Shown here: piece by piece, positions 9,624 through 25,083 of the stretch
Layout of the letters: each line of letters begins with the position of its first letter
Position numbering within the stretch: the stretch's first letter is position 1
Source: a virus
Reading direction: 5' to 3' (one strand)
Length of the DNA: 27,470 nt
Virus record (IMG/VR): IMGVR_UViG_3300049473_000128
Coordinates: 1-27,470 of that record
The notes under the pieces: generated by a model
Seen by the model: only the letters and a program-made list of their open reading frames with translations
Database searches by the model: none
Told to the model about the DNA's origin: nothing
Made by a program: the position numbers and the translations under genes

Positions 9624-12572
9624 TTAAGGACTTTTCTGCGTATAAACCGCTCCGTAATCAATATACGTCACCATTATCGCCCACCTGCCCGTACTTGCAG
9701 TTTCATCCCAGTTGTTAGTGGGGGTGAAATTAACCCAGATATGACGAGCCGCATTAGTTGCGGCAAGTTCAGGACCTCCGGTCGCCTCGGTAGTCAGAAT
9801 ATCATTGGCTGTATCACAAGTAGCGGCGGTGATAATACTGCCGTCACCAGTTGTCACGCCAACGTCAATAGTCATTTCATTCGAGTCGCCAAAGGTTTCA
9901 AAGCAGCGCAACTGGCAGGAGACTATCTCGGCATAAGCCGGGATAATTTCCCCGCAGTCAATCGGCTGCTCTGTGGTATTATCCTGAGTTTCATCGCAAC
10001 TAAAATCGTCCGTACTTCCGGTGGAGTTTGCGTCAATAGTCTTTACGACGGTTTTTGTCATATACATTACATCGTGGTCGCCGTCAGATACTATATCATC
10101 GCAATACAAATCACCAACGTCATCGACGGTATCGTCGGACATTGTTATACCGGCAGTACCGGCATTAAGCGTTATTCCGCCTGCCCCTGTCGTAGCAACA
10201 AGACTAATGGCATCGGCGGCTTCTTCTGTGGCTGTGATATTAACTGAGCCGCCGGTATTAGTCAGTGAAATATCCTGACCGGCAGCTCCGGTAGTGGTAA
10301 TATCAATATCGCCAAGAGACGTAATATCAATACCGCCGTCACCTGAAGTGCAGACTAAGGTAATGGCGTCCTCGGCGTCTTCACCGGAATCGAGCACTAA
10401 ACTTGCCGCTTCAGCGTCGAGTTTAATATCGCCATTGGCCGAAGCCGTAGCGGACGAAATTGTAACTTTACCGCCGGCGTCGATAGTAACATCATCGCCG
10501 AGAGTAAGAAGCAAATCGCCTGCCGTCGCATCGGAAGCAGTGGCCGTAATCCCGCCGGCGTCGGACAGGAGTTCTATGGAAGCCGCTCCCGTACCCTGGT
10601 CGGAATGAACCTTGATATTCTCGGAAGCGCCGCCGTTTGCGTGTATATAAATCGAGTTAGTACCGTCAGAATCCGTAGAGACGATAGTAATCTGGTCCTC
10701 GGCGTCAATAGTAATATCGCCGTTGGCTGCACCGTCAGAAACGATTGAAACGGCTCCGTCACCGGTATCGACGGAAACGGAACCGACGGGATTTAATGCG
10801 AAATCTCCGCCGACGGTCAGGGTCATATCATCTACTGCATTTACATCGACATCGCCGTTATCCGTACCGTTGGCATTCAGGGTAAACGAGCCGTCGGTCG
10901 TATCAATCGTTACATTATCAGCAACATCAATATCCAGATTATCACCGGCGTCCACATCGACAGAGCCGTCATCGGACACAATCTGAATAGAACTTGCGCC
11001 AGTTCCCTGGTCGTTGTGGATTACCATAGTTGCGGAGGTGCCGCCGTCGGCGGTAAGCAGTACGGCGTTACTATTATCAAGATTGGACTTGATATTTATA
11101 CCACCTGCATCGGAAAGAAGCTGAATTGAGGCGGAGCCTTCGGCAGCACTTTCCCCCTGGTCATTGAAAATCCAGATTGAACCTGTAGCGCCGCCGTCAC
11201 TCGTCAAAGCGACAGACTTGGCAAGGTTGGCGGTAGAGCGCAACTCCACACCACCGTCGTCAGAAAGCAACTCGACGGAATATGCGCCTTCCGTTACGGA
11301 AGCCCCCTGATTGGCGTGGATTTTGATTGCACCGCTCGTCCCACCGTTTTCCTGAATATAAACAGCACCGGAATCATCCTCTGTTGCCGTGACGTTGATA
11401 CTTCCGCCGGTATTGGTAAGGGTAATATCTTCACCCGCTTCGCCTGTGGTTGTAATGTCAATGTCGGCATTTGAAGTGATGTCTATTCCGCCTGCGGCCG
11501 TATCGGCCTCAAGAACGATAGCATCTGCGGCTGCTTCGGAAGCGGTAAGGTTAATGGACACATTAGACACTAAGTCCAAATCCTCGCCCGCCGCCGCTCC
11601 GGCAACCGTCAAATCCATACCGCCGGCAGAAGTTGAGACAGTAAGGGCGTCTGCACCTGTACCGGAAGAGACGAGGATAAGAGTCGAATCGGTAGCTCCG
11701 GTAACTGCGATAGTCAAGTCTTCTGCGTCACCGTCAGATTCGAGTCCGATTCCGTGACCTGCATCAGTGGGCAGGAATGTTATCGAATCGATACTACTGA
11801 AGGTGTCAACCCCTGACCAGTCTATAGCGGAAACGCCTGTGGAGCTTTTGACCTGAATTTGGTTCGAACTGTAATCCATATCAAAAATCAGGTCTTCACC
11901 GGCTTCCGTAAACTTGAACTCGGAATCAGTGGAATTTGCGATTATACCGCCGCTGTCCAGTGTCAGTGTATTTCCGAAAATAGAACCATCAGCGGCGACA
12001 TAGAATTGAGCGCCATAATTGTTTGAAGCTAAAATCGAATAACCACTTCCGCTATTCATTAGACTGAGTAAGTACCCAGTCGAATTTACGTTATTTACCA
12101 CATATATTCCGCTGGCATTAGCGGAAGATGCGGGATAATTACTAACGCTCAGTAAAGGACCGACTTGGGCCACAGTATTAGTTAAGGTTACTGGTTTACT
12201 CAACACATCCACAGTAATTTTATAGCCAACGCCGGAACCACCGCCGTCGTAAGCATCATCAAGCGTAACGGTGTCATCCGTACCACTTCCAGCCGGAGCA
12301 CCGCCGCCGCCCGCTCCGCCTTCGTTGACGACTTTCCACTCCGAACCGTCGTAAGAATGGAGCTCATTGACATCGGCATCGGTATCGTACCATAAATCAC
12401 CTTCTTCTATCGTCCATACCCCACTGGGAACCGCATCGCGCTCTGTCGAAGTGCCGACGTAAACGAACGTGAACCGGCCGTTATCGTCATAGCACGAATT
12501 CGGCTTCAAAGCTCCGAGAACGGGCAGGACAAGAAGGCATGACAATAAAACAGCTAAAATTAACTTCTTCAT
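9624..12572 (-). CDS. Repetitive beta-rich fibre/spike-like protein with Sec signal, 982 aa
   Basis: The first 20 residues, MKKLILAVLLSCLLVLPVLG, form a textbook Sec signal with likely cleavage after VLG. A small domain follows (residues 26-72, FTFVYVGTSTERDAVPSGVW and after), then a long Gly/Asp/Ser/Thr-rich repetitive region (about 290-810) built of short strands (DIDITTTGEAGEDITLTNTG), consistent with a beta-helix or beta-prism shaft. The final 150 residues hold five or more Cys and look like a compact beta domain ending in ARHIWVNFTPTNNWDETAST and a short tail. GAAAGGGAC precedes the ATG. It lies directly after the capsid gene. Such proteins are normally virion spikes or head decorations; the cleavable signal is unexpected and leaves open a secreted or cell-surface product. 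Confidence 0.75.
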   Translation of the reverse strand: MKKLILAVLLSCLLVLPVLGALKPNSCYDDNGRFTFVYVGTSTERDAVPSGVWTIEEGDLWYDTDADVNELHSYDGSEWKVVNEGGAGGGGAPAGSGTDDTVTLDDAYDGGGSGVGYKITVDVLSKPVTLTNTVAQVGPLLSVSNYPASSANASGIYVVNNVNSTGYLLSLMNSGSGYSILASNNYGAQFYVAADGSIFGNTLTLDSGGIIANSTDSEFKFTEAGEDLIFDMDYSSNQIQVKSSTGVSAIDWSGVDTFSSIDSITFLPTDAGHGIGLESDGDAEDLTIAVTGATDSTLILVSSGTGADALTVSTSAGGMDLTVAGAAAGEDLDLVSNVSINLTASEAAADAIVLEADTAAGGIDITSNADIDITTTGEAGEDITLTNTGGSINVTATEDDSGAVYIQENGGTSGAIKIHANQGASVTEGAYSVELLSDDGGVELRSTANLAKSVALTSDGGATGSIWIFNDQGESAAEGSASIQLLSDAGGINIKSNLDNSNAVLLTADGGTSATMVIHNDQGTGASSIQIVSDDGSVDVDAGDNLDIDVADNVTIDTTDGSFTLNANGTDNGDVDVNAVDDMTLTVGGDFALNPVGSVSVDTGDGAVSIVSDGAANGDITIDAEDQITIVSTDSDGTNSIYIHANGGASENIKVHSDQGTGAASIELLSDAGGITATASDATAGDLLLTLGDDVTIDAGGKVTISSATASANGDIKLDAEAASLVLDSGEDAEDAITLVCTSGDGGIDITSLGDIDITTTGAAGQDISLTNTGGSVNITATEEAADAISLVATTGAGGITLNAGTAGITMSDDTVDDVGDLYCDDIVSDGDHDVMYMTKTVVKTIDANSTGSTDDFSCDETQDNTTEQPIDCGEIIPAYAEIVSCQLRCFETFGDSNEMTIDVGVTTGDGSIITAATCDTANDILTTEATGGPELAATNAARHIWVNFTPTNNWDETASTGRWAIMVTYIDYGAVYTQKSP
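10224..11492 (-). repeat. Pair of 38-residue modules, 31/38 identical, flanking the repeat region
   Basis: Residues 361-398 and 746-783 of the 982-aa protein (DNA 11379-11492 and 10224-10337) share the pattern GGIDITSxxDIDITTTGxAG followed by xDIxLTNTGGSxNxTATE, with 31 of 38 positions identical by my count. The two copies bracket the four shorter repeats. This could reflect copying of one shaft segment to both ends or loss of intervening copies. Confidence 0.7.
10542..11345 (-). repeat. Four diverged protein-level repeat units in the 982-aa gene
   Basis: Residues 410-459, 460-509, 510-540 and 647-677 of the 982-aa protein begin alike: GGTSGAIKIHANQG, GGATGSIWIFNDQG, GGTSATMVIHNDQG and GGASENIKVHSDQG. 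Each continues into a strand of the form SIxLLSDxGGI (YSVELLSDDGG, ASIQLLSDAGG, SSIQIVSDDGS, ASIELLSDAGG). Units one and two are 50 residues each and adjacent. Unit four lies about 100 residues downstream. The divergence suggests old tandem duplication rather than recent slippage. Confidence 0.75.
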
Positions 12573-14077: not shown

Positions 14078-15121
14078 TTAAACGGCCCTGCCGGAACCAG
14101 AGGCATAGTCGCGTGCCATCTGCGACATATTGTCCATAGTGATTCTGGGCCTTTCGCCCGCAGGTGTAACTACCGGACCTGCGGCAGGGGCCGGATTGGG
14201 CGGCGATCCGCCGGGCGGATTACCGCCGCCGCCTCTAAGTGAAAATGCTTTACGTACTTCCTGCCTGCCGAGTTCCCTCTGATATTCAGCCAGTAAGCCA
14301 AGCTGCTTATTCGCCTGTTGGGCGAAGTAAGCGACCTGTCTCTTATTGAGACTGGAAGGGTCGAGCCCTAAGTCAAGGGCCGCCCGTTCGATTATCTGGC
14401 TGGTCATAGCGACGCTGACATCATCAACGCCGCGCCGGATTTCGGCAGGCATATCGTTATATCCCGGCTGAGTACGCGCAATAGTAAGTACCGCTTCCAG
14501 ATTTTCGGTCGAGGCCGTTTCGAGGTCTCTCTGCCTGACCATATCTGAGATAGCCGCATTCCTCGCTTCATTCAGCTTATGGATAGCTTCTATGTATTCA
14601 GTATTGGTTTTTATCGTCACACCATCCCCGCTGGCCGCTTCCGCGTCATACGCCTGCTTGGCGGCCTCATACGCGGCCTGTGCGGTCTCTACAGGGCCTT
14701 TCGGAGGCTGGTCGGTGGTTTGGGTCACATTCCGGACGTTCGTTGCTGTACGGGGCACTCCGGCCCTTTTGGAGATAAAGTCCACTACATCCTGCTGACT
14801 GATTACGCCTGATTCGAGCTGTTCGGCCAGGTCGCTCTGCGGGTCGAGGCCAAGAGAGCGTATGAGTTTCTCATTGGCTGCGTTCTGCTGCTTGAGCCGC
14901 TCGTTGGCGGCTGCAATCTCTTCGGGTGTGGCCTTAGTTTCCACGGCGTCCGGTTTTTGCTCCGGCGGTCTGGTTTCCGCTGTTGCAGGCTCTGCCGGGA
15001 CTGATGACGGCCCGCCTTCGGGGTATCCGGTAGCCGTATTGAAATCCGGCTTACTCGGCTCAGGGTTCGCTACAGTGCTGGCGCCCGTATTCGGGTCCGC
15101 ATTGTTTGGAGTCGCTGTCAT
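14078..15121 (-). CDS. Scaffolding-type protein, 347 aa
   Basis: The ATG overlaps the resolvase stop as ATGA and has AACGAAAGGA upstream. The first 75 residues are Pro/Ala/Thr/Glu-rich and disordered. They lead into helical, coiled-coil-prone regions (TPEEIAAANERLKQQNAANE; VETAQAAYEAAKQAYDAEAA). Near the end comes a basic helix (LLAEYQRELGRQEVRKAFSL), then a Gly/Pro-rich tail. A disordered N-terminus, long helices and a basic C-terminal helix just before the capsid gene are hallmarks of internal scaffolds, which guide capsid assembly and leave before DNA packaging. No protease motif was seen. Confidence 0.75.
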   Translation of the reverse strand: MTATPNNADPNTGASTVANPEPSKPDFNTATGYPEGGPSSVPAEPATAETRPPEQKPDAVETKATPEEIAAANERLKQQNAANEKLIRSLGLDPQSDLAEQLESGVISQQDVVDFISKRAGVPRTATNVRNVTQTTDQPPKGPVETAQAAYEAAKQAYDAEAASGDGVTIKTNTEYIEAIHKLNEARNAAISDMVRQRDLETASTENLEAVLTIARTQPGYNDMPAEIRRGVDDVSVAMTSQIIERAALDLGLDPSSLNKRQVAYFAQQANKQLGLLAEYQRELGRQEVRKAFSLRGGGGNPPGGSPPNPAPAAGPVVTPAGERPRITMDNMSQMARDYASGSGRAV

Positions 15122-15720
15122 TTTGATTCCTTTCGTTTTGAGGTCTTTTTGTCCTTTGGTTCTGGATTATATTTAGATAACAGTATTATCTGCTGGTATT
15201 TTTCTAAGTATTCAGCGGCTTTATAAAGCAAAGTTGGATTGTCTCCCATTTTCCCAATGGCGTGATTACAACCAAGACACAGAAACCCTCGTATTTGCCC
15301 TGTTCGGTGGTTATGGTCTAAATGTAATCCGTTGTAACATTCGGCATCAGGTATTCCACAGATAGCACATTTGTAATCTTGTCTTGCTTTTATGTTTTCA
15401 TATTGCTCCAAGCTGATACCATATCTTTTTCGTATATTCCTCTCCTTCCTTCTGCGCGACCCGCCTCGGTTGTGATAGTAATCCCGCTTTTGAGCCAGCA
15501 ACTTATCCTTATTTTTCTTGGCATATTGCTTACGATACCGCTGCCGGGCTTTTACGGCCTTTTTGGTGCGCTTGATGTACTTTTCCTTCAGACTGGTTAA
15601 AACACACTGTTTACAGTCATACCGGTAACCGCCATTCTTCAAATTGCCGTTTTTCAGTCTCTCCTTCGTGCGATAAAACGCACTCAAGGGCTTATCAGTT
15701 TTACACTTACAGCAAATCAT
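15118..15720 (-). CDS. Endonuclease VII-type Holliday-junction resolvase (HNH/beta-beta-alpha-metal), 200 aa
   Basis: Residues 118-152 hold the endonuclease VII core: Cys118-x2-Cys121, then LDHNHRTG (Asp135, His136), then Cys148-x2-Cys151 followed at once by Asn152. In T4 gp49 the same order is two Zn cysteines, catalytic Asp-His, two Zn cysteines, Asn, and the spacing from second Cys to Asp (14) is equal. The N-terminus carries an extra Cys cluster (Cys3, Cys4, Cys6; Cys36, Cys39) followed by a Lys/Arg-rich linker. The family cleaves branched DNA. It is tied to the upstream and downstream genes by ATGA overlaps. A role in clearing DNA branches before packaging fits; a homing endonuclease is the alternative. 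Confidence 0.88.
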   Translation of the reverse strand: MICCKCKTDKPLSAFYRTKERLKNGNLKNGGYRYDCKQCVLTSLKEKYIKRTKKAVKARQRYRKQYAKKNKDKLLAQKRDYYHNRGGSRRRKERNIRKRYGISLEQYENIKARQDYKCAICGIPDAECYNGLHLDHNHRTGQIRGFLCLGCNHAIGKMGDNPTLLYKAAEYLEKYQQIILLSKYNPEPKDKKTSKRKESK

Positions 15721-16189: not shown

Positions 16190-17890
16190 TTAACTGGGGT
16201 CCATAGGGTCGCCGAGCAGGCCGGAGTTCCAGGCCATAAAGGCCGTCTCGGCCTCCTGCGTCTTGTCCGGCGGGAAGGACGACCGCTGCTTGACGATTAC
16301 ATTGAACTTGCCTCGTAACTGGTTCTTGTCCAGTTTGAACAGGGTCCATTCGTAGTCGGAGCCGACGACGTTGACGAGCTTACCGTTATCATAATTGGCA
16401 AATGCTACTGTAAGGGCCTGAAAGACCAGCCGCTCATCCGCCTGCTCGAATCCGGCGACTACCGGACCCTGATGCTCAACGTCAGTCCTCTGCAGCGCCA
16501 GAATACCTTTACCGCTCTCTACACTCTTGGGGATAGAGCCCCTGCTCGGCGCGTGGAATGAGAATATATTATCAATAGCGAGTCGCTTCTGCGCCAGAAG
16601 CACGAATACCTGAGAGTTCATCGGAACGCCCGGTTCACGAGTAGGCTTTCCGAGACTGTCGTACTCGATGATATTGCCCGCCCGATTATCGAGCTTGCGA
16701 TAACTGACTTTGGCATTGCGAGGGGCCATAAAGACGGCATTGCCCATAATGTCAAGGTTCTCGTCTATCTGGCTCAACAGCCGGTTATAATCCCTCTGTA
16801 TGGGTCTTGCCTGCGATATTCGGGATATGCCCGCCGCGGTAGCGCCCTTTATCCTCACCGGATAGGCAGGTATAAACGGCAGTTCCTGATGGGGGTAGCT
16901 GTCCACCGGGTACGGCTGGTGTTTTACGAGCTGGTCGGAGACCATTTCGGCGTACATTCCCGCAGGGTGTGATTTGGTCGGTATCTGCCAGCATTCACAG
17001 TACATTATATGTTTTTCAGACTGGAGCTTTATATCGTCATGGGAGGACATCGCATAAGTAACTTTCCTCTGCTCGGTCGAGCCGGACGATATGGCACGGA
17101 ACTCATTGAAGGCATTCATAATGCCTACTTCGAAATTGTTTAAGAAAGGGCCTGAACTGAACTTGCCCTTGAGCTTCTCATAAACGTCGAGTCCATACCT
17201 GTCGCGCACCCAGTCGGCGCTTACCGGCAGGCAATGGATAATCCACGGCAGTTTGAACAAATCGTAGAGTCGGAAGTCCCAGATGAGCTGGCTGGTAGGC
17301 ACTGACTCGATGACCAAATCGCCGCTCATTATCGGCGCTCCAGCCGGTAAATCGGGCAGATGGTCGATGTTCCACCTGCCGTCGTCGGTAATCGCCGCCG
17401 GATTGACGCCCTCGACTATGGCATCGGGGTTCCAGTACACCTTGCGCCAGCCGACGCCGGAAATATCATACCATACGATAGCATCGTCACGGCACAGGCC
17501 CCGTCCGAATTTCCTCTGCAAAAACGGTATCATCTTCTCTCCGGCTATCGCCGTGGCCTTATCGTCGTCGTCCGTTCCGGCCGGCACCACATCAAATAGC
17601 GGCGGTCTCGACGTTCCGACCGCCATATCGTTCTGAACGGCCGGCAGAATGACGTTTTCAACAGTCTGTATCGCCCTTTCATCATCGAGCGGCATTACCT
17701 GGTCGCCGACTAACTGGATATTCTGCTGGCCGACCATATAAGCGATATTACACTTGATTTCAGTCAGCAGTGAGCGGTGAAGCGGAGAGAAAGATTCTAT
17801 CCTCTTTTGAATCAGTGTGGCCGCCTGACGAGATGCAGGGTCGGTCATTATCTGCTGGTCATCAGCCCTGGATTTCTGTTCCATATACAT
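16190..17890 (-). CDS. Portal protein, 566 aa
   Basis: AAGGG stands seven bases before the ATG, and the gene overlaps the upstream Zn-ribbon gene by 29 bases. The N-terminal helices (RQAATLIQKRIESFSPLHRS), early motif (NVILPAVQNDMAVGTSRPPL), Trp-rich centre (DDAIVWYDISGVGWRKVYWN; PTSQLIWDFRLYDLFKLPWI) and late helices (ISRISQARPIQRDYNRLLSQ) match the wing/stem/crown order of P22-like portals. The portal ring is the channel through which DNA enters and leaves the head. It follows the terminase genes as usual. It ends earlier than many P22-type portals, and the missing C-terminal region seems to be encoded by the next gene. Confidence 0.85.
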   Translation of the reverse strand: MYMEQKSRADDQQIMTDPASRQAATLIQKRIESFSPLHRSLLTEIKCNIAYMVGQQNIQLVGDQVMPLDDERAIQTVENVILPAVQNDMAVGTSRPPLFDVVPAGTDDDDKATAIAGEKMIPFLQRKFGRGLCRDDAIVWYDISGVGWRKVYWNPDAIVEGVNPAAITDDGRWNIDHLPDLPAGAPIMSGDLVIESVPTSQLIWDFRLYDLFKLPWIIHCLPVSADWVRDRYGLDVYEKLKGKFSSGPFLNNFEVGIMNAFNEFRAISSGSTEQRKVTYAMSSHDDIKLQSEKHIMYCECWQIPTKSHPAGMYAEMVSDQLVKHQPYPVDSYPHQELPFIPAYPVRIKGATAAGISRISQARPIQRDYNRLLSQIDENLDIMGNAVFMAPRNAKVSYRKLDNRAGNIIEYDSLGKPTREPGVPMNSQVFVLLAQKRLAIDNIFSFHAPSRGSIPKSVESGKGILALQRTDVEHQGPVVAGFEQADERLVFQALTVAFANYDNGKLVNVVGSDYEWTLFKLDKNQLRGKFNVIVKQRSSFPPDKTQEAETAFMAWNSGLLGDPMDPS

Positions 17891-18080: not shown

Positions 18081-18342
18081 CTTTGCCCTTCTGCTCGTCG
18101 TCGGACTTATTATCTGTTCCATCGTCACTGGTACGCTCATATCCTGCCACAAATAATTCAATATCCGTCATTTCCCTGCACAAATCCGGCCGGAGAAACT
18201 TCAGTCTGGTCCAGCACGTATGAAAGAACGTATCGCGCCTCGCCAGCTCCTCACTGAGCAGTGCCGGAGGCTGCGGAGCTTGCGACATTGCAATATCAAC
18301 ATCCACAGCCCGCTTCGCTCTGAACAACTCAGATATTTTCAT
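18073..18342 (-). CDS. Small acidic-tailed protein, 89 aa
   Basis: Its ATG overlaps the terminase nuclease stop as ATGA, so it is probably translated by coupling. It is helical in the middle (ELARRDTFFHTCWTRLKFLR), with a charged Asp/Lys-rich tail (TSDDGTDNKSDDEQKGK). There are no zinc pairs, signal peptide or membrane span. Its position between terminase and portal suggests a packaging accessory factor, but nothing in the sequence shows that. The product is unrecognised. Confidence 0.65.
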   Translation of the reverse strand: MKISELFRAKRAVDVDIAMSQAPQPPALLSEELARRDTFFHTCWTRLKFLRPDLCREMTDIELFVAGYERTSDDGTDNKSDDEQKGKVV

Positions 18343-19070
18343 ACTATTTTTCCCTTTCTTCTCTGGTCCTTATCGCGGTTCTGTAAATCCCTTTTTAGTT
18401 CACTCCACATCCTCCTGGCCTCCGGCGATATAGGTGTTTTCCTGACTACCGGCTTCGGCCTTATCATTGGGTACAGCTTCGCCCCGTGATAAGCGAACAA
18501 AGAACTCATCACACAATCATCTGTGAATCCCTCAGCGCCCGAGGCCTTCCTTCTCGAACCGACGTACACGAAGTTGTAGAACTCGCTTATCGTTACGGGG
18601 TCGTGCAGAATGACCTCGTGATTGGCGAGGGCGAGCTGAAACTCGTTTATCAGGAGCCACTTCATCGGCTCGGTCGTCCGAAGTCCGAACTTGTCCGATA
18701 CGTTCGGGTCAATATCGAGATGCTCTTCCGGCCTGTAGCTGTTCGGGTATTCATAGAACTCGTTAAGCTGGTCCTGTACGGAATTGCCCGGATAGTTGAT
18801 TTCACAGACATTGAACGCCGTATTGTAGAGCCTGCCGAGCAGATTGCACATTCGGGTAAAATCGTTTACCGGAACACGCAGTCTCAGGACGGCCACCTGC
18901 TCGAACGGCAGGCAGTTGCAGAATATCTGGGCTACGGAATAGTCCTCGTCGAGTCCCGTGGCCGTATCTATACCCATCGTGTACGACAGGCCTTTTACCG
19001 GCAGCTCGAACACCCGCAAAGGGCCGTCCGAATTCTCAACGAACTTAGGCCGCCATATCCGCGGGTTCAT
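18339..19070 (-). CDS. terL: Terminase large subunit, nuclease domain as a separate ORF, 243 aa
   Basis: It carries the RNase H-like nuclease half of a large terminase. The first strand reads GLSYTMGIDTATGLDEDYSV with Asp35. The second acidic site is in NVCEINYPGN (Glu90), and the third is TDDCVMSSLFAYHGA (Asp184/Asp185). This half cuts concatemeric DNA to genome length. The ATG has GGAG nine bases upstream and lies within the last 26 bases of the ATPase ORF, in the +1 frame. TAA and TAG lie immediately upstream in this frame. The lead-in DGPLRVFELP is the linker normally found between ATPase and nuclease in one chain, so the split falls close to the natural domain boundary. It could be two working subunits, a frameshifted product or a sequence error. 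Confidence 0.85.
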   Translation of the reverse strand: MNPRIWRPKFVENSDGPLRVFELPVKGLSYTMGIDTATGLDEDYSVAQIFCNCLPFEQVAVLRLRVPVNDFTRMCNLLGRLYNTAFNVCEINYPGNSVQDQLNEFYEYPNSYRPEEHLDIDPNVSDKFGLRTTEPMKWLLINEFQLALANHEVILHDPVTISEFYNFVYVGSRRKASGAEGFTDDCVMSSLFAYHGAKLYPMIRPKPVVRKTPISPEARRMWSELKRDLQNRDKDQRRKGKIV

Positions 19071-19977
19071 TTACTATATCTCCACAAACGAACGGTCTGG
19101 CCTTGACCTCGAACTCAGCGAGTGCCTTGCGGTCGAATACCGGCCTGCCGCCGAAGATGATATACTTGCCCTCGATACGGACATCTCGCTCGTCCTGAGT
19201 CAGAGACCTGGCCACCTTCTCGATTTCCTCAAGCGGGATATACGGGTTCTCTCGCATACCGCTTGTAATGTCGAACACATCTTTTCGGCCCATAAGCTCT
19301 TTGAGCCAGCGAGTCCCTTCGATTGGTGTTGCGGTCAGAAGCCAGATGCCCTGATTATCAACGAGTCGCAATTCGATTTCAGGAAAGATGGATGTATCGA
19401 GTGGTTCTTCATCAATCCATGCGAAATCTATCTTAGCACCCTGAAACTTCTGGCGGCCTGAATCGCAGGATTTGAACCACACTTCCCATTCACGCCCGTC
19501 ACTGCGGAGTATCCATCGCATCAGCTTGCCCGACCAGTGGCCGTTGTCCTTATAGCGTTTCGGTATGAACCGCTCGAACATCGGCTGGCCGATGGCCGCT
19601 ATCTGCTTGGCGTCAAGTCCCACTATCCAGGCGATACCGTTGCGAGGACTGGCATACGTCGGATGCTCGCCTGTAACCATTAAGGCCGTCTCGAAGGCCC
19701 CTAAAAAGCTCTTGCCGGTTCGATTGGCCGATGCAACCACACAGCCCTTATAGAACGGCCTGTTCCAAATGACTTTGTGCTGCCAGCTCGGAGAGCCGTC
19801 ACTGCGATTGCGATACGGAACCATCGCGTAGTAAGGTTCTTTTGCGCGAGTCAAAATCTCCTGTACTATCTTCTTGTTGGCCCGCAGCCAGTCCAGGGCC
19901 TGCCTGCCCGACTTCGTGTGACTCGACAAGGCGGCAAGTTCTTTCAGCTTCCTCAATCTCAGCAAATAATTCTGCAT
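19045..19977 (-). CDS. terL: Terminase large subunit, ATPase domain as a separate ORF, about 310 aa
   Basis: Motor half of the packaging enzyme. Walker A is VVASANRTGKS (lysine-serine end intact), Walker B is FAWIDEEP with the catalytic Glu, and the coupling motif is LLTATP, at about residues 83-90, 185-192 and 213-218 of the chosen frame. The C-terminal part (GKYIIFGGRPVFDRKALAEF) leads to the usual linker and then stops at 19045. The start is uncertain. ATGs at 19977, 20007, 20025 and 20034 all lie inside the terS frame and none has a good Shine-Dalgarno site; I chose 19977 as the shortest ATG form. The frame overlaps terS by about 180 bases. The protein hydrolyses ATP to pump DNA into the head with the portal. 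Confidence 0.8.
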   Translation of the reverse strand: MQNYLLRLRKLKELAALSSHTKSGRQALDWLRANKKIVQEILTRAKEPYYAMVPYRNRSDGSPSWQHKVIWNRPFYKGCVVASANRTGKSFLGAFETALMVTGEHPTYASPRNGIAWIVGLDAKQIAAIGQPMFERFIPKRYKDNGHWSGKLMRWILRSDGREWEVWFKSCDSGRQKFQGAKIDFAWIDEEPLDTSIFPEIELRLVDNQGIWLLTATPIEGTRWLKELMGRKDVFDITSGMRENPYIPLEEIEKVARSLTQDERDVRIEGKYIIFGGRPVFDRKALAEFEVKARPFVCGDIVNEPADMAA

Positions 19978-20392
19978 CCGATGCAACGGAAACTGTAAGT
20001 CGAGCATCAATTTCTGTTGGTGCATAGAGTCCATAAATCTTGATAATCTCCTGTAACGCAGCCTGACGTACTTTGTTGTTGGGGACTTCCTGCCATATAA
20101 CCTCGCCGTCGCTTTTCTCGAACGGGACACGATTAGTGGCGTCGAGCTGGTCGAGCAGTCTGTCCATAACGCCTGTAACGCCCCTGAGCCTGCTCGTCTC
20201 AAGGTAGTCCAATGCCATCGAGCGGAAGTCCCGCTCTTTCTTATAGCCGTGCAGAGTCATTCTCGACAGGCCGAGCTCTTCGGAGCATTTGGTTATCGAC
20301 TTGCGCTCGACAATATGCTTCTGAAAGAACTTGACCAGATTGAGTCGCTTCTGGTCTGACGGCGATATTTTCATATCATCGTCAGTCGGCAT
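19799..20392 (-). CDS. terS: Terminase small subunit, 197 aa
   Basis: The N-terminal helix-turn-helix (FFQKHIVERKSITKCSEELG then LSRMTLHGYKKERDF) is typical of small terminases, which bind phage DNA and recruit the large subunit. A helical middle follows (RLLDQLDATNRVPF; NKVRQAALQEIIKIYGLYAP), the usual oligomerisation region, ending near DAELFAEIEEAE. The last 45 or so residues (GQAGPGLAAGQQEDSTGDFD and after) look like the shadow of the overlapping terL frame, so the functional C-terminus may be shorter in effect. The ATG at 20392 overlaps the upstream gene by 11 bases; an ATG at 20374 is also possible. Confidence 0.8.
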   Translation of the reverse strand: MPTDDDMKISPSDQKRLNLVKFFQKHIVERKSITKCSEELGLSRMTLHGYKKERDFRSMALDYLETSRLRGVTGVMDRLLDQLDATNRVPFEKSDGEVIWQEVPNNKVRQAALQEIIKIYGLYAPTEIDARLTVSVASDAELFAEIEEAERTCRLVESHEVGQAGPGLAAGQQEDSTGDFDSRKRTLLRDGSVSQSQ

Positions 20393-22007: not shown

Positions 22008-22786
22008 AAGTATATCCCCGAATCGATAGAGCCGAGCTTGCCCCCTGTCGCAGACGGGTCGGTGTGAGATGCCAGAGGCTCGTCCCATACCGCCTGAGCG
22101 ATTTCATCGCTTGCCGCCGCTCCGAGTTCCCCGGAATAAGCATTGGCCCATATACGAACTATATCACCGGCGGCAAGATTGAACTCGAACGGATAATCGA
22201 CGCGGACCACCATATCGCCGCCGTAGTCATAATAATCGACTACCCTTCTCGATGCAGTGACCCCGCCGGTAACATCTGTTACGGAGACCACCATATTATT
22301 GTACTCATCCGCACTGGGTGAGCCTGCATCAAGAGAAAAATACTCGTCCGCTCCGAGACCTTGCGGGTCGTTGGCTTTTACCGTAGTCTTTAAGGCTATT
22401 GCCGGATTTTCATAAATGCCGGAACCGTATCGGGCGTCGTAGACGTCGGCGTCCATAACCATAAACTCTTTCGATACCGAAAGGATTATCAGTTGACCTT
22501 CCTTGTTCTGAACCACAACTTCGAGCCTGCCGAGCGTATTAACATTACCCACCGTCAGTTTAAGCGCGAAACACCCTCTTTCCGGCACGGACAGTTCGTT
22601 ATCTCCACCCTCGCCGGTATCGGTAAGTTCGGTAAATACGCCGTTTTTGGCGATGAACACCTCCAGATTAGAAATATCCACACTATCACCAGAAGGTATG
22701 GGCGTAGTCCCATCGAGCGCACTTCTAACGGTTGTTCTCACGCCGGTTATTACTATCGTTGCCGCTGTATTCTGTCTCAAGTCCAT
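22004..22786 (-). CDS. Virion-type protein with AVWDEPLASH motif, 260 aa
   Basis: The start overlaps the LamG gene stop as TAATG. The N-terminal half is beta-rich (TAATIVITGVRTTVRSALDG; GGDNELSVPERGCFALKLTV). The C-terminus carries IAQAVWDEPLASHTDPSATG, a short motif that recurs in many tailed-phage structural proteins and often lies near the end or between domains. An Ig-like or jelly-roll fold is likely for the bulk. No signal peptide or enzyme motif was found. It may be an upper-tail or decoration protein. The motif is recognised from general familiarity, not from a named family. Confidence 0.7.
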   Translation of the reverse strand: MDLRQNTAATIVITGVRTTVRSALDGTTPIPSGDSVDISNLEVFIAKNGVFTELTDTGEGGDNELSVPERGCFALKLTVGNVNTLGRLEVVVQNKEGQLIILSVSKEFMVMDADVYDARYGSGIYENPAIALKTTVKANDPQGLGADEYFSLDAGSPSADEYNNMVVSVTDVTGGVTASRRVVDYYDYGGDMVVRVDYPFEFNLAAGDIVRIWANAYSGELGAAASDEIAQAVWDEPLASHTDPSATGGKLGSIDSGIYL

Positions 22787-25083
22787 TAGTGTTTCACCAG
22801 TGAACGAAATATATAATATGGCGGATGCCAGATAACATCATCACCCAAAGCACCGTCATCAGCATTACCTTTATTATCCGTTATTGTCGTTCCGTTACCC
22901 TCATCGCATTTATAGCGAACATTTGAGGTATTACCGAAACCCATATTCGTTTCTGTGTAATTCTGCCTGTTGCCCGAATGATATATAAAATTGTTCAAGC
23001 CCTCATTCACATCATTCCAGAATCTTAAATGGTCAAATCCGAAATCACCTTCAATAACGAGATTAGAGTTATTAGAAAACGCAGAGTGCGAAAACGAACC
23101 ACTTTCTGTATAACCCACGGAAGCCCCGTCGGAATTATAAGTAAGGATATTCATATAACCGTAATTAGGGTCATCGTCGTAATAATATATAACGTCTGTA
23201 CAATACCAAGTACCATCCGAAATGATAATATCACTCCGCACATTTGTTACCAATCCGTTTGCATCGTAAAGGTCAAACTGAACCTTACCGGCTTTTATGG
23301 ATATTTCATAGCCGGGGCCGGAATCTCGCTTGCTCATTAACGACTGGTACGGTCTCCGCAAGTAATTATTGAACCAGAACGAGCAGGCCCATTGCGGCCC
23401 CATAATATCGAGATAATCATTGTCGGGTATAGTTATATGTGAGTTCGGCTCACCGTTGAGATAAAGAGCGTCCATCGGATTGGCGGCGGCGGTTATCTGA
23501 ACTGTCGCGTAGTTTGACCAATCATTGCCGTCATATACCCTGAACATAAAGTTAGAATCACCGACTGTATCGGTGATAAAATAAACAGTTTTCCCCTCAT
23601 ATCTGAGAATCCACGGCATAAGGTTCGGTTCGAGAATCGGCGTACCGATAAATGTGTCAGCCATTTTACTATTGGCGGCAATATCATTGACCTCATAAAT
23701 TAAAGGTAAAGGTGTGCCATCATCCACCGCCGATAAATCAAAAGAGTAAACCACATAAGTCTCTACAGATTCGGCGCTGTCGTAAGCGACCGGAACAATC
23801 ACACACTGAATTGCAACTGTCGCTATATTCGATTTGCCGCAATACTCGATGTCCGGGTTGATATCGGCATAATAAGTAAAATTAGTCGAGCCGTAATAGT
23901 CAGAGTCGGATTTGTAAATCACTCTGTCGCCGGTATCGAGCAAGGTATAAGGTACTGATGTTATTTCAATGACATTTGGGTCGTCAATGTTAGGGTCTGA
24001 ATAATCAGGGTCGCTGTTGTCGGGGTCGTAAAGTGTTCCGTATGCTGGCAGGGTTTGTATGTAATAGGTAGCCGAAGATTCGGACGAAAGGTGAATGTAC
24101 ACCTCGCTGTTCTGGTTAATCTCAAGAGAGATATTGTCGGCCTCTATTGCCTGCTCAAATTCAAGCCATTGCTCAGCGAACTCGGCAATATCATCTATGT
24201 CAATGTCGCCATCACTGTCAAGGTCGTAAGTAACCGCTTCACCCAGTCCATACTCAGTACCATTGCCGTTGTAGTACAGCCATTCAATCTCAGATTGTGA
24301 TAATGCTTTGTCGAAAATCAATACGTTGTCAATTAAGCCTTCAAATGGATTTCCAGAAGAAACATCATTTTCATTATATGCACCTATATAAAAACTAAAA
24401 TCAATATCAAACTCTGACATATTCGACCAGGAATCATCACTGGTCGCCTTCAATTCACCATCTGCATAAATCTTGATGCGGGCAGTTGTTTCTGTCACAT
24501 TCTCAACTATCATAGTTATCATTATCCATTCAGTTTCCCCGTCTAAAAATACAGGTTCTGGTGTAATCAATTCAATCAGGGAATCTGTGTAAGAACCGTA
24601 TGAACTTCTTACTTCACCTGTCGAATCTAATTGCAAATACACACCATACAATATTCCCACATCCCTTGTATAACCCATAATCCTCTTTGAACCTGACGGG
24701 TGTCCATCATCAGGTTTGAGATAACAATTTATAGTGAAACTGTCCTGAAAAAACGAATCAGGGATATTTACATCTACATAATCACTTGACCCGTCGAAAT
24801 CTAATGCCCCGCTGATTTTGCCTGCAACGTACATATCTTCGGTATTTTTTGGAGAAATACCGTGATGACCGTTGCCCGAACTATCTAAGACCGTGGTATT
24901 AGGCTCATTATCGTTTAATCTCCAATGACCGACGCAGCTTGTGGCAAGAGAGCGATATTCCGAAGCCAAATAAGCAAAGTCCTCAAAATTGACTATGCAG
25001 TCGGCGTTGTAGTTGGCTGTAAGGCCAAAACAGGGCGGGATAATGCCGCATAAGAGAAAGAAAAAAACCAGATGCCTGACCAT
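22786..25083 (-). CDS. Secreted LamG/dockerin-like multidomain protein, 765 aa
   Basis: A signal peptide (residues 1-20, ending PPCFG) is followed by a dockerin-like half repeat (NADCIVNFEDFAYLASEYRS, 26-45). Next is a LamG/concanavalin-like domain (about 50-272; WRLNDNEPNTTVLDSSGNGH at its start, FEGLIDNVLIFDKALSQSEI at its end). A second, canonical calcium-type half follows (DLDSDGDIDIDDIAEFAEQW, 287-306), then Ig-like beta domains (about 310-530) and another LamG-like domain (537-700). The C-terminus repeats a LamG opening (DEGNGTTITDNKGNADDG). LamG domains bind glycans or proteins; dockerin halves bind calcium and, when complete, cohesins. The domain set is typical of planctomycete exported proteins. 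A cell-surface or glycan-binding role, on the virion or secreted, is inferred. Confidence 0.8.
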   Translation of the reverse strand: MVRHLVFFFLLCGIIPPCFGLTANYNADCIVNFEDFAYLASEYRSLATSCVGHWRLNDNEPNTTVLDSSGNGHHGISPKNTEDMYVAGKISGALDFDGSSDYVDVNIPDSFFQDSFTINCYLKPDDGHPSGSKRIMGYTRDVGILYGVYLQLDSTGEVRSSYGSYTDSLIELITPEPVFLDGETEWIMITMIVENVTETTARIKIYADGELKATSDDSWSNMSEFDIDFSFYIGAYNENDVSSGNPFEGLIDNVLIFDKALSQSEIEWLYYNGNGTEYGLGEAVTYDLDSDGDIDIDDIAEFAEQWLEFEQAIEADNISLEINQNSEVYIHLSSESSATYYIQTLPAYGTLYDPDNSDPDYSDPNIDDPNVIEITSVPYTLLDTGDRVIYKSDSDYYGSTNFTYYADINPDIEYCGKSNIATVAIQCVIVPVAYDSAESVETYVVYSFDLSAVDDGTPLPLIYEVNDIAANSKMADTFIGTPILEPNLMPWILRYEGKTVYFITDTVGDSNFMFRVYDGNDWSNYATVQITAAANPMDALYLNGEPNSHITIPDNDYLDIMGPQWACSFWFNNYLRRPYQSLMSKRDSGPGYEISIKAGKVQFDLYDANGLVTNVRSDIIISDGTWYCTDVIYYYDDDPNYGYMNILTYNSDGASVGYTESGSFSHSAFSNNSNLVIEGDFGFDHLRFWNDVNEGLNNFIYHSGNRQNYTETNMGFGNTSNVRYKCDEGNGTTITDNKGNADDGALGDDVIWHPPYYIFRSLVKH

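Follow-up and report, generated by a model that had tools for sequence, protein, structure and literature searches.

A large terminase encoded by separate ATPase and nuclease genes in a clade of uncultured phages

As a marker of tailed phages, the large terminase (TerL) is treated as one chain. In phage T4, the linker between its ATPase and nuclease domains is regarded as indispensable for linking ATP hydrolysis to the movement of DNA. Here, we describe a locus in IMG/VR virus record IMGVR_UViG_3300049473_000128, 27,470 bases from an uncultured phage (the window, meaning this whole stretch, to which coordinates refer), in which TerL is divided between a gene for a stand-alone ATPase (TerL-A) and a gene for a stand-alone nuclease (TerL-N). 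According to a review, the fused ATPase plus nuclease layout is universal among jumbo phages (PMC7824862). T4 gp17 is a single chain with a hinge, beside which its two domains touch over >1000 square angstroms, and its nuclease residues are D401, E458 and D542 (PMC3012670).

Among previously sequenced phages, terL information also lies in two genes in Campylobacter phage CP81 (Fletchervirus), there at separate places. Its terL1 and terL2 (NC_042112.1, 101876-103204 and 125158-125874) carry apparent split-intein halves at Walker B: terL2 ends in an apparent N-half after IFIDE, and terL1 opens with a C-half before CAFIDKW. With these split-intein ends present, the CP81 halves are expected to rejoin. 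Among the isolates closest to the family described here is Arthrobacter phage GurgleFerb (Jasminevirus), whose TerL matches a family ATPase at 36% over 65% of that ATPase and, unlike the split form, is one intact 527-amino-acid (aa) chain. Two TerL-related genes have been ascribed to Arthrobacter cluster AT phages (PMC5513430); a literature lead on "two separate genes" in Arthrobacter cluster AN concerned lysis genes, not terminase. With cluster AT phages outside the comparison, no published description of a natural, unspliced two-gene TerL was found in the open literature. In SEA-PHAGES annotation, "terminase, large subunit (ATPase domain)" and "(nuclease domain)" are labels in use.

Both open reading frames (ORFs) lie on the minus strand of the window, as a sequence-only reading of this DNA had described, and neither chain holds both domains:

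19045..20034, minus strand: TerL-A, stand-alone large-terminase ATPase, 329 aa (Pfam, phrog, AlphaFold2 and Foldseek)
19708..19731, minus strand: Walker A, SANRTGKS (translation; G107 and K108 invariant in the ATPase alignment)
19402..19419, minus strand: Walker B, WIDEEP (translation; D208, E209 and E210 invariant in the ATPase alignment)
19324..19341, minus strand: coupling motif, LLTATP (translation; T234, A235, T236 and P237 invariant in the ATPase alignment)
18339..19070, minus strand: TerL-N, stand-alone large-terminase nuclease, 243 aa (profile match, AlphaFold2 and Foldseek)
18966..18968, minus strand: catalytic D35 (invariant; aligned to T4 D401)
18801..18803, minus strand: catalytic E90 (invariant; aligned to T4 E458)
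18516..18521, minus strand: catalytic D184-D185 (invariant; aligned to the T4 D542 region)
19045..19070, minus strand: 26-nucleotide (nt) overlap of the two genes, nuclease in the +1 frame (ATPase stop and nuclease start)
19080..19083, minus strand: GGAG, possible ribosome-binding site of the nuclease gene (sequence, 9 nt from the ATG)

TerL-A carries the Walker A, Walker B with catalytic carboxylate, and coupling motifs of a large-terminase ATPase, and keeps the full lid region up to GKYIIFGGRPVF. It matches Terminase_6N in Pfam (PF03237, E 1.7e-7) and phrog_2, terminase large subunit. A search of PDB by sequence with the ATPase profile gave no match, whereas the fold search did: with an AlphaFold2 model of TerL-A (predicted local distance difference test, pLDDT, 84), Foldseek ranked the large-terminase ATPase domains of D6E, P74-26 and T4 high. 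TerL-N is an RNase H-like nuclease with the Asp/Glu/Asp triad, its D35, E90 and D184-D185 being invariant across 22 family members and pairing, when the profile is aligned to 3c6a/3ezk, with T4 gp17 D401/E458/D542. It matches phrog_24361 ("terminase"), and a seven-member nuclease profile found the RB49 gp17 nuclease (3c6a, E 1e-12) and T4 gp17 residues 384-549. Foldseek with its AlphaFold2 model (pLDDT 80) placed T4 gp17 at the top (3cpe/3c6a, E ~6e-11), and the nuclease of a homologue (L005) matches Terminase_6C. The pair is thus of the T4/RB49 gp17 (Terminase_6) type, with the ATPase motifs and an RNase H-like D/E/D nuclease that matches 3c6a and 3cpe by both sequence and fold, and differs from gp17 in that the domains are encoded apart, with no covalent hinge.

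The ATPase gene ends in TAA (19045-19047) and the nuclease ATG lies at 19070-19068. The sequence-only reading had both positions, the +1 frame and the GGAG right, and the motifs and Asp/Glu/Asp-Asp sites that it named are found by translation and are invariant in relatives. Its ATPase start, 19977, needs revision: homologue N-termini begin MDS..., which makes 20034 the most likely start. Low model confidence is confined to the last 17 ATPase residues and most of the first ten nuclease residues, so the break falls in the inter-domain linker and both domains appear complete.

Relatives were gathered by IMG/VR scans with single sequences and alignments. A single-sequence nuclease scan of viral contigs, its patterns being too specific, gave no relatives, whereas alignment-based scans did find them. 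Both halves were found in 30 further contigs (~22 after merging near-identical ones), all from metagenomes, and from many of them. Scans of genome contigs found no relative, and hence neither a host nor a prophage for the clade. In 30/30 of the relatives the break, with a stop and a separate nuclease ORF, falls at the same ATPase/nuclease boundary, a regularity well beyond chance. Close relatives with an intact terL, named beforehand as the sign of a sequence error or recent mutation, were looked for and none was found; intact single-chain TerLs were met only at ~25-35% identity (L010-L017, L047, L076-L080 and others).

Over 31 contigs, window included, the nuclease gene is in the +1 frame relative to the ATPase gene in 15, in the +2 frame in 12 and in frame in 4. 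Stop-to-start spacings, individually approximate since start codons were set by homology and a script, are -26 (window), -20, -14, -11, -7, -4 (ATGA or GTGA) and -1 (TAATG), with wider values in the clade of +2 to +24, ~250-370 and 4447 nt. Script picks were replaced by the homologous ATG in L002 and L023 and by the start in TAATG in L101. Four contigs (L033, L105, L101 and L035) share the ends "...YAA*" or "...HAA*" and "MEKWKF...", yet differ in frame through spacing changes of a few nucleotides.

Between the ATPase and nuclease genes, six contigs have 1-3 ORFs. A complete Tad2-like gene (PF11195; E 1.4e-23 in L003, 2.1e-10 in L002) separates them in L002, L003, L004 and L023, and a gene of phrog_2428, function unknown, does so in L018. 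PADLOC and NCBIfam searches gave no name for the intervening genes, whereas Pfam gave Tad2. The Tad2-like family takes its name from a Thoeris anti-defence protein. In the 51-kb contig 3300027861_000004, read as circular because its ends share 127 nt, the ATPase gene ends at L114:245 and the nuclease gene begins at L114:4693; the 4.4 kb between them hold three ORFs (~98, 542 and 761 aa). A search for a second terminase in nine records (27-56 kb, the circular one included) found none, and Terminase_6N matched once per record in 9/9.

Both halves are under purifying selection in the L002/L003 pair, where dN/dS is ~0.07-0.09 in the ATPase and 0.12 in the nuclease. To either side of the break, differences cluster at third positions of codons. 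The finding of purifying selection rests mainly on that pair because synonymous sites are saturated in most others. In an ATPase tree, from which L038 was excluded as a mis-cut row, the 21 split members form one side of a 97/97 branch, opposite the intact TerLs and those of a second split lineage; for the clade, one old split is the most economical explanation.

That second lineage comprises nine contigs (L081-L085, L087-L089 and L097) and GenBank MW202785.1, annotated with two "large terminase protein" coding sequences. It too has separate ATPase and nuclease ORFs, with small ORFs between them in its contigs. Unlike in the clade, its break falls after the coupling motif, so that the lid region is on the nuclease side, and in the ATPase tree it lies among intact TerLs, away from the main clade.

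We consider the locus to be one instance of a clade-wide two-gene large terminase, TerL-A plus TerL-N, acting as a non-covalent complex, with a probability of about 0.88. The conserved split is accompanied by intact active sites, by folds predicted for both halves, by only one copy in each record searched and, in some relatives, by genes lying between the halves. Since the split and both halves are conserved, we infer joint function: both proteins would be made, bind each other and package DNA as a complex. Under this reading, TerL would have been divided within the flexible linker that, in other phages, connects the two domains, and each half would be initiated separately, mostly through overlap with, or close coupling to, the ATPase stop. 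Translational coupling by overlap would be the likely route to balanced expression where the genes touch, and independent initiation would have to serve where another ORF intervenes. The most likely meeting place of the two proteins would be the conserved ATPase/nuclease contact surface, which, by analogy with T4, could hold separate chains together, and a non-covalent motor-plus-cutter on the portal would then do the job of a single TerL chain.

Several points weigh against this reading. T4 gp17 cut at the linker retains ATPase and nuclease activity and loses translocation (PMC3012670, PMC9958956), so a working split motor cannot be assumed. A clear Shine-Dalgarno sequence ahead of the nuclease gene is missing in some members, a nuclease tree with distant outgroups does not resolve the split clade, and every member is a metagenomic contig studied at the level of its sequence. 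The behaviour of cut gp17 is also why the split matters: the clade is a natural test of the need for a covalent hinge and of the role of the nuclease in the translocating machine, and bears on what controls headful cutting once cutter and motor are no longer one protein. Surveys of phages based on TerL can miss or miscount such phages.

How the two proteins would share the work may vary. A natural hetero-oligomeric motor is possible, if doubtful, in which a stand-alone ATPase ring translocates DNA without a covalently tied nuclease, which would join separately, perhaps in a different number or only for cutting. A somewhat less probable variant of the two-gene complex would have the nuclease only cut, outside any stable motor, while the ATPase ring alone pumps DNA. 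The halves can lie 4.4 kb apart, so tight translational coupling is not required, and in some motor models it is the ATPase ring that generates the force (PMC7617512). A point against this variant is that both halves are retained together in one clade.

Explanations that restore a single chain fare worse than a two-protein terminase. A programmed +1 frameshift, or stop readthrough in the in-frame members, would yield a fused working TerL; the 26-nt frame overlap makes a shift physically possible in the window, and the halves share one frame in four contigs. The clade nevertheless shows three frame relations that change between close relatives, with ORFs inserted in six contigs (4.4 kb of sequence in one), rather than a conserved frame relation with a shift site. 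Because the frame varies among members with the same protein ends, there is no conserved frameshift or readthrough device. A frameshift is thereby refuted as a general mechanism for the clade and is very improbable overall, and of the two possibilities that the sequence-only reading had offered, the two-subunit one gains support and the frameshift does not.

Even less probable is RNA splicing of an intron, or protein trans-splicing by a split intein as expected in CP81. The two CP81 genes do bear split-intein halves, and several clade members have intein-like inserts at Walker A. The CP81 break is marked by split-intein ends at Walker B, whereas the clade break lies between the domains: junction translations show neither an N- nor a C-half there, and in no member does the ATPase end, or the nuclease begin, with intein sequence. 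Rfam searches gave no match, no group I/II intron was found at the break, and the overlap of both genes leaves no room for an intron in the window. A sequence error or recent mutation in an ordinary terL, conceivable in a contig from metagenomic assembly, is hardly credible given the identical break site in 30 other contigs, the invariant catalytic residues and the purifying selection on both halves in the one measurable pair.

ATPase ORFs of 663-700 codons occur in five members (L008, L009, L018, L024 and L034), which have in-frame inserts of ~1 kb by Walker A (GANRIGK/S). The inserts are probably inteins, as suggested by weak Hint and LAGLIDADG matches in L008, the only one scanned. In L086, whose ATPase resembles that of the second split lineage, a Tad2-like gene (L086:2631-2876) lies right behind the ATPase half; the spot behind the ATPase half, in the clade and in L086, is a possible insertion site for anti-defence genes.

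The window's gene order is probable small terminase (TerS), ATPase, nuclease, two small ORFs and portal, with these flanking genes:

19799..20392, minus strand: probable TerS, helix-turn-helix (HTH)-like (position and conserved order; weak HTH matches in homologue L003)
16190..17890, minus strand: P22-like portal protein, downstream, in the same transcription direction (Pfam P22_portal, phrog_156)

The TerS-like and ATPase genes have 236 nt in common (19799-20034), and overlaps of 100-320 nt are found in 21/21 representatives checked. Overlap that long between two essential genes is unusual. Elsewhere in the window, a 982-aa secreted-looking protein (9624-12572) with many degenerate repeats (DITTTGEAGEDITLTNTGGSINVTATE...) gave no clear match in family searches and is probably a fibre or surface protein. 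A gene of the recombination endonuclease VII family (15118-15720; PF02945, E 2.8e-23) lies within the head-gene block. A 765-aa protein (22786-25083) combines a concanavalin A-like lectin domain (PF13385) with a dockerin-like DSDGDIDIDDIAEFAEQWLE stretch, and this may point to a planctomycete (Phycisphaerae-like) host.
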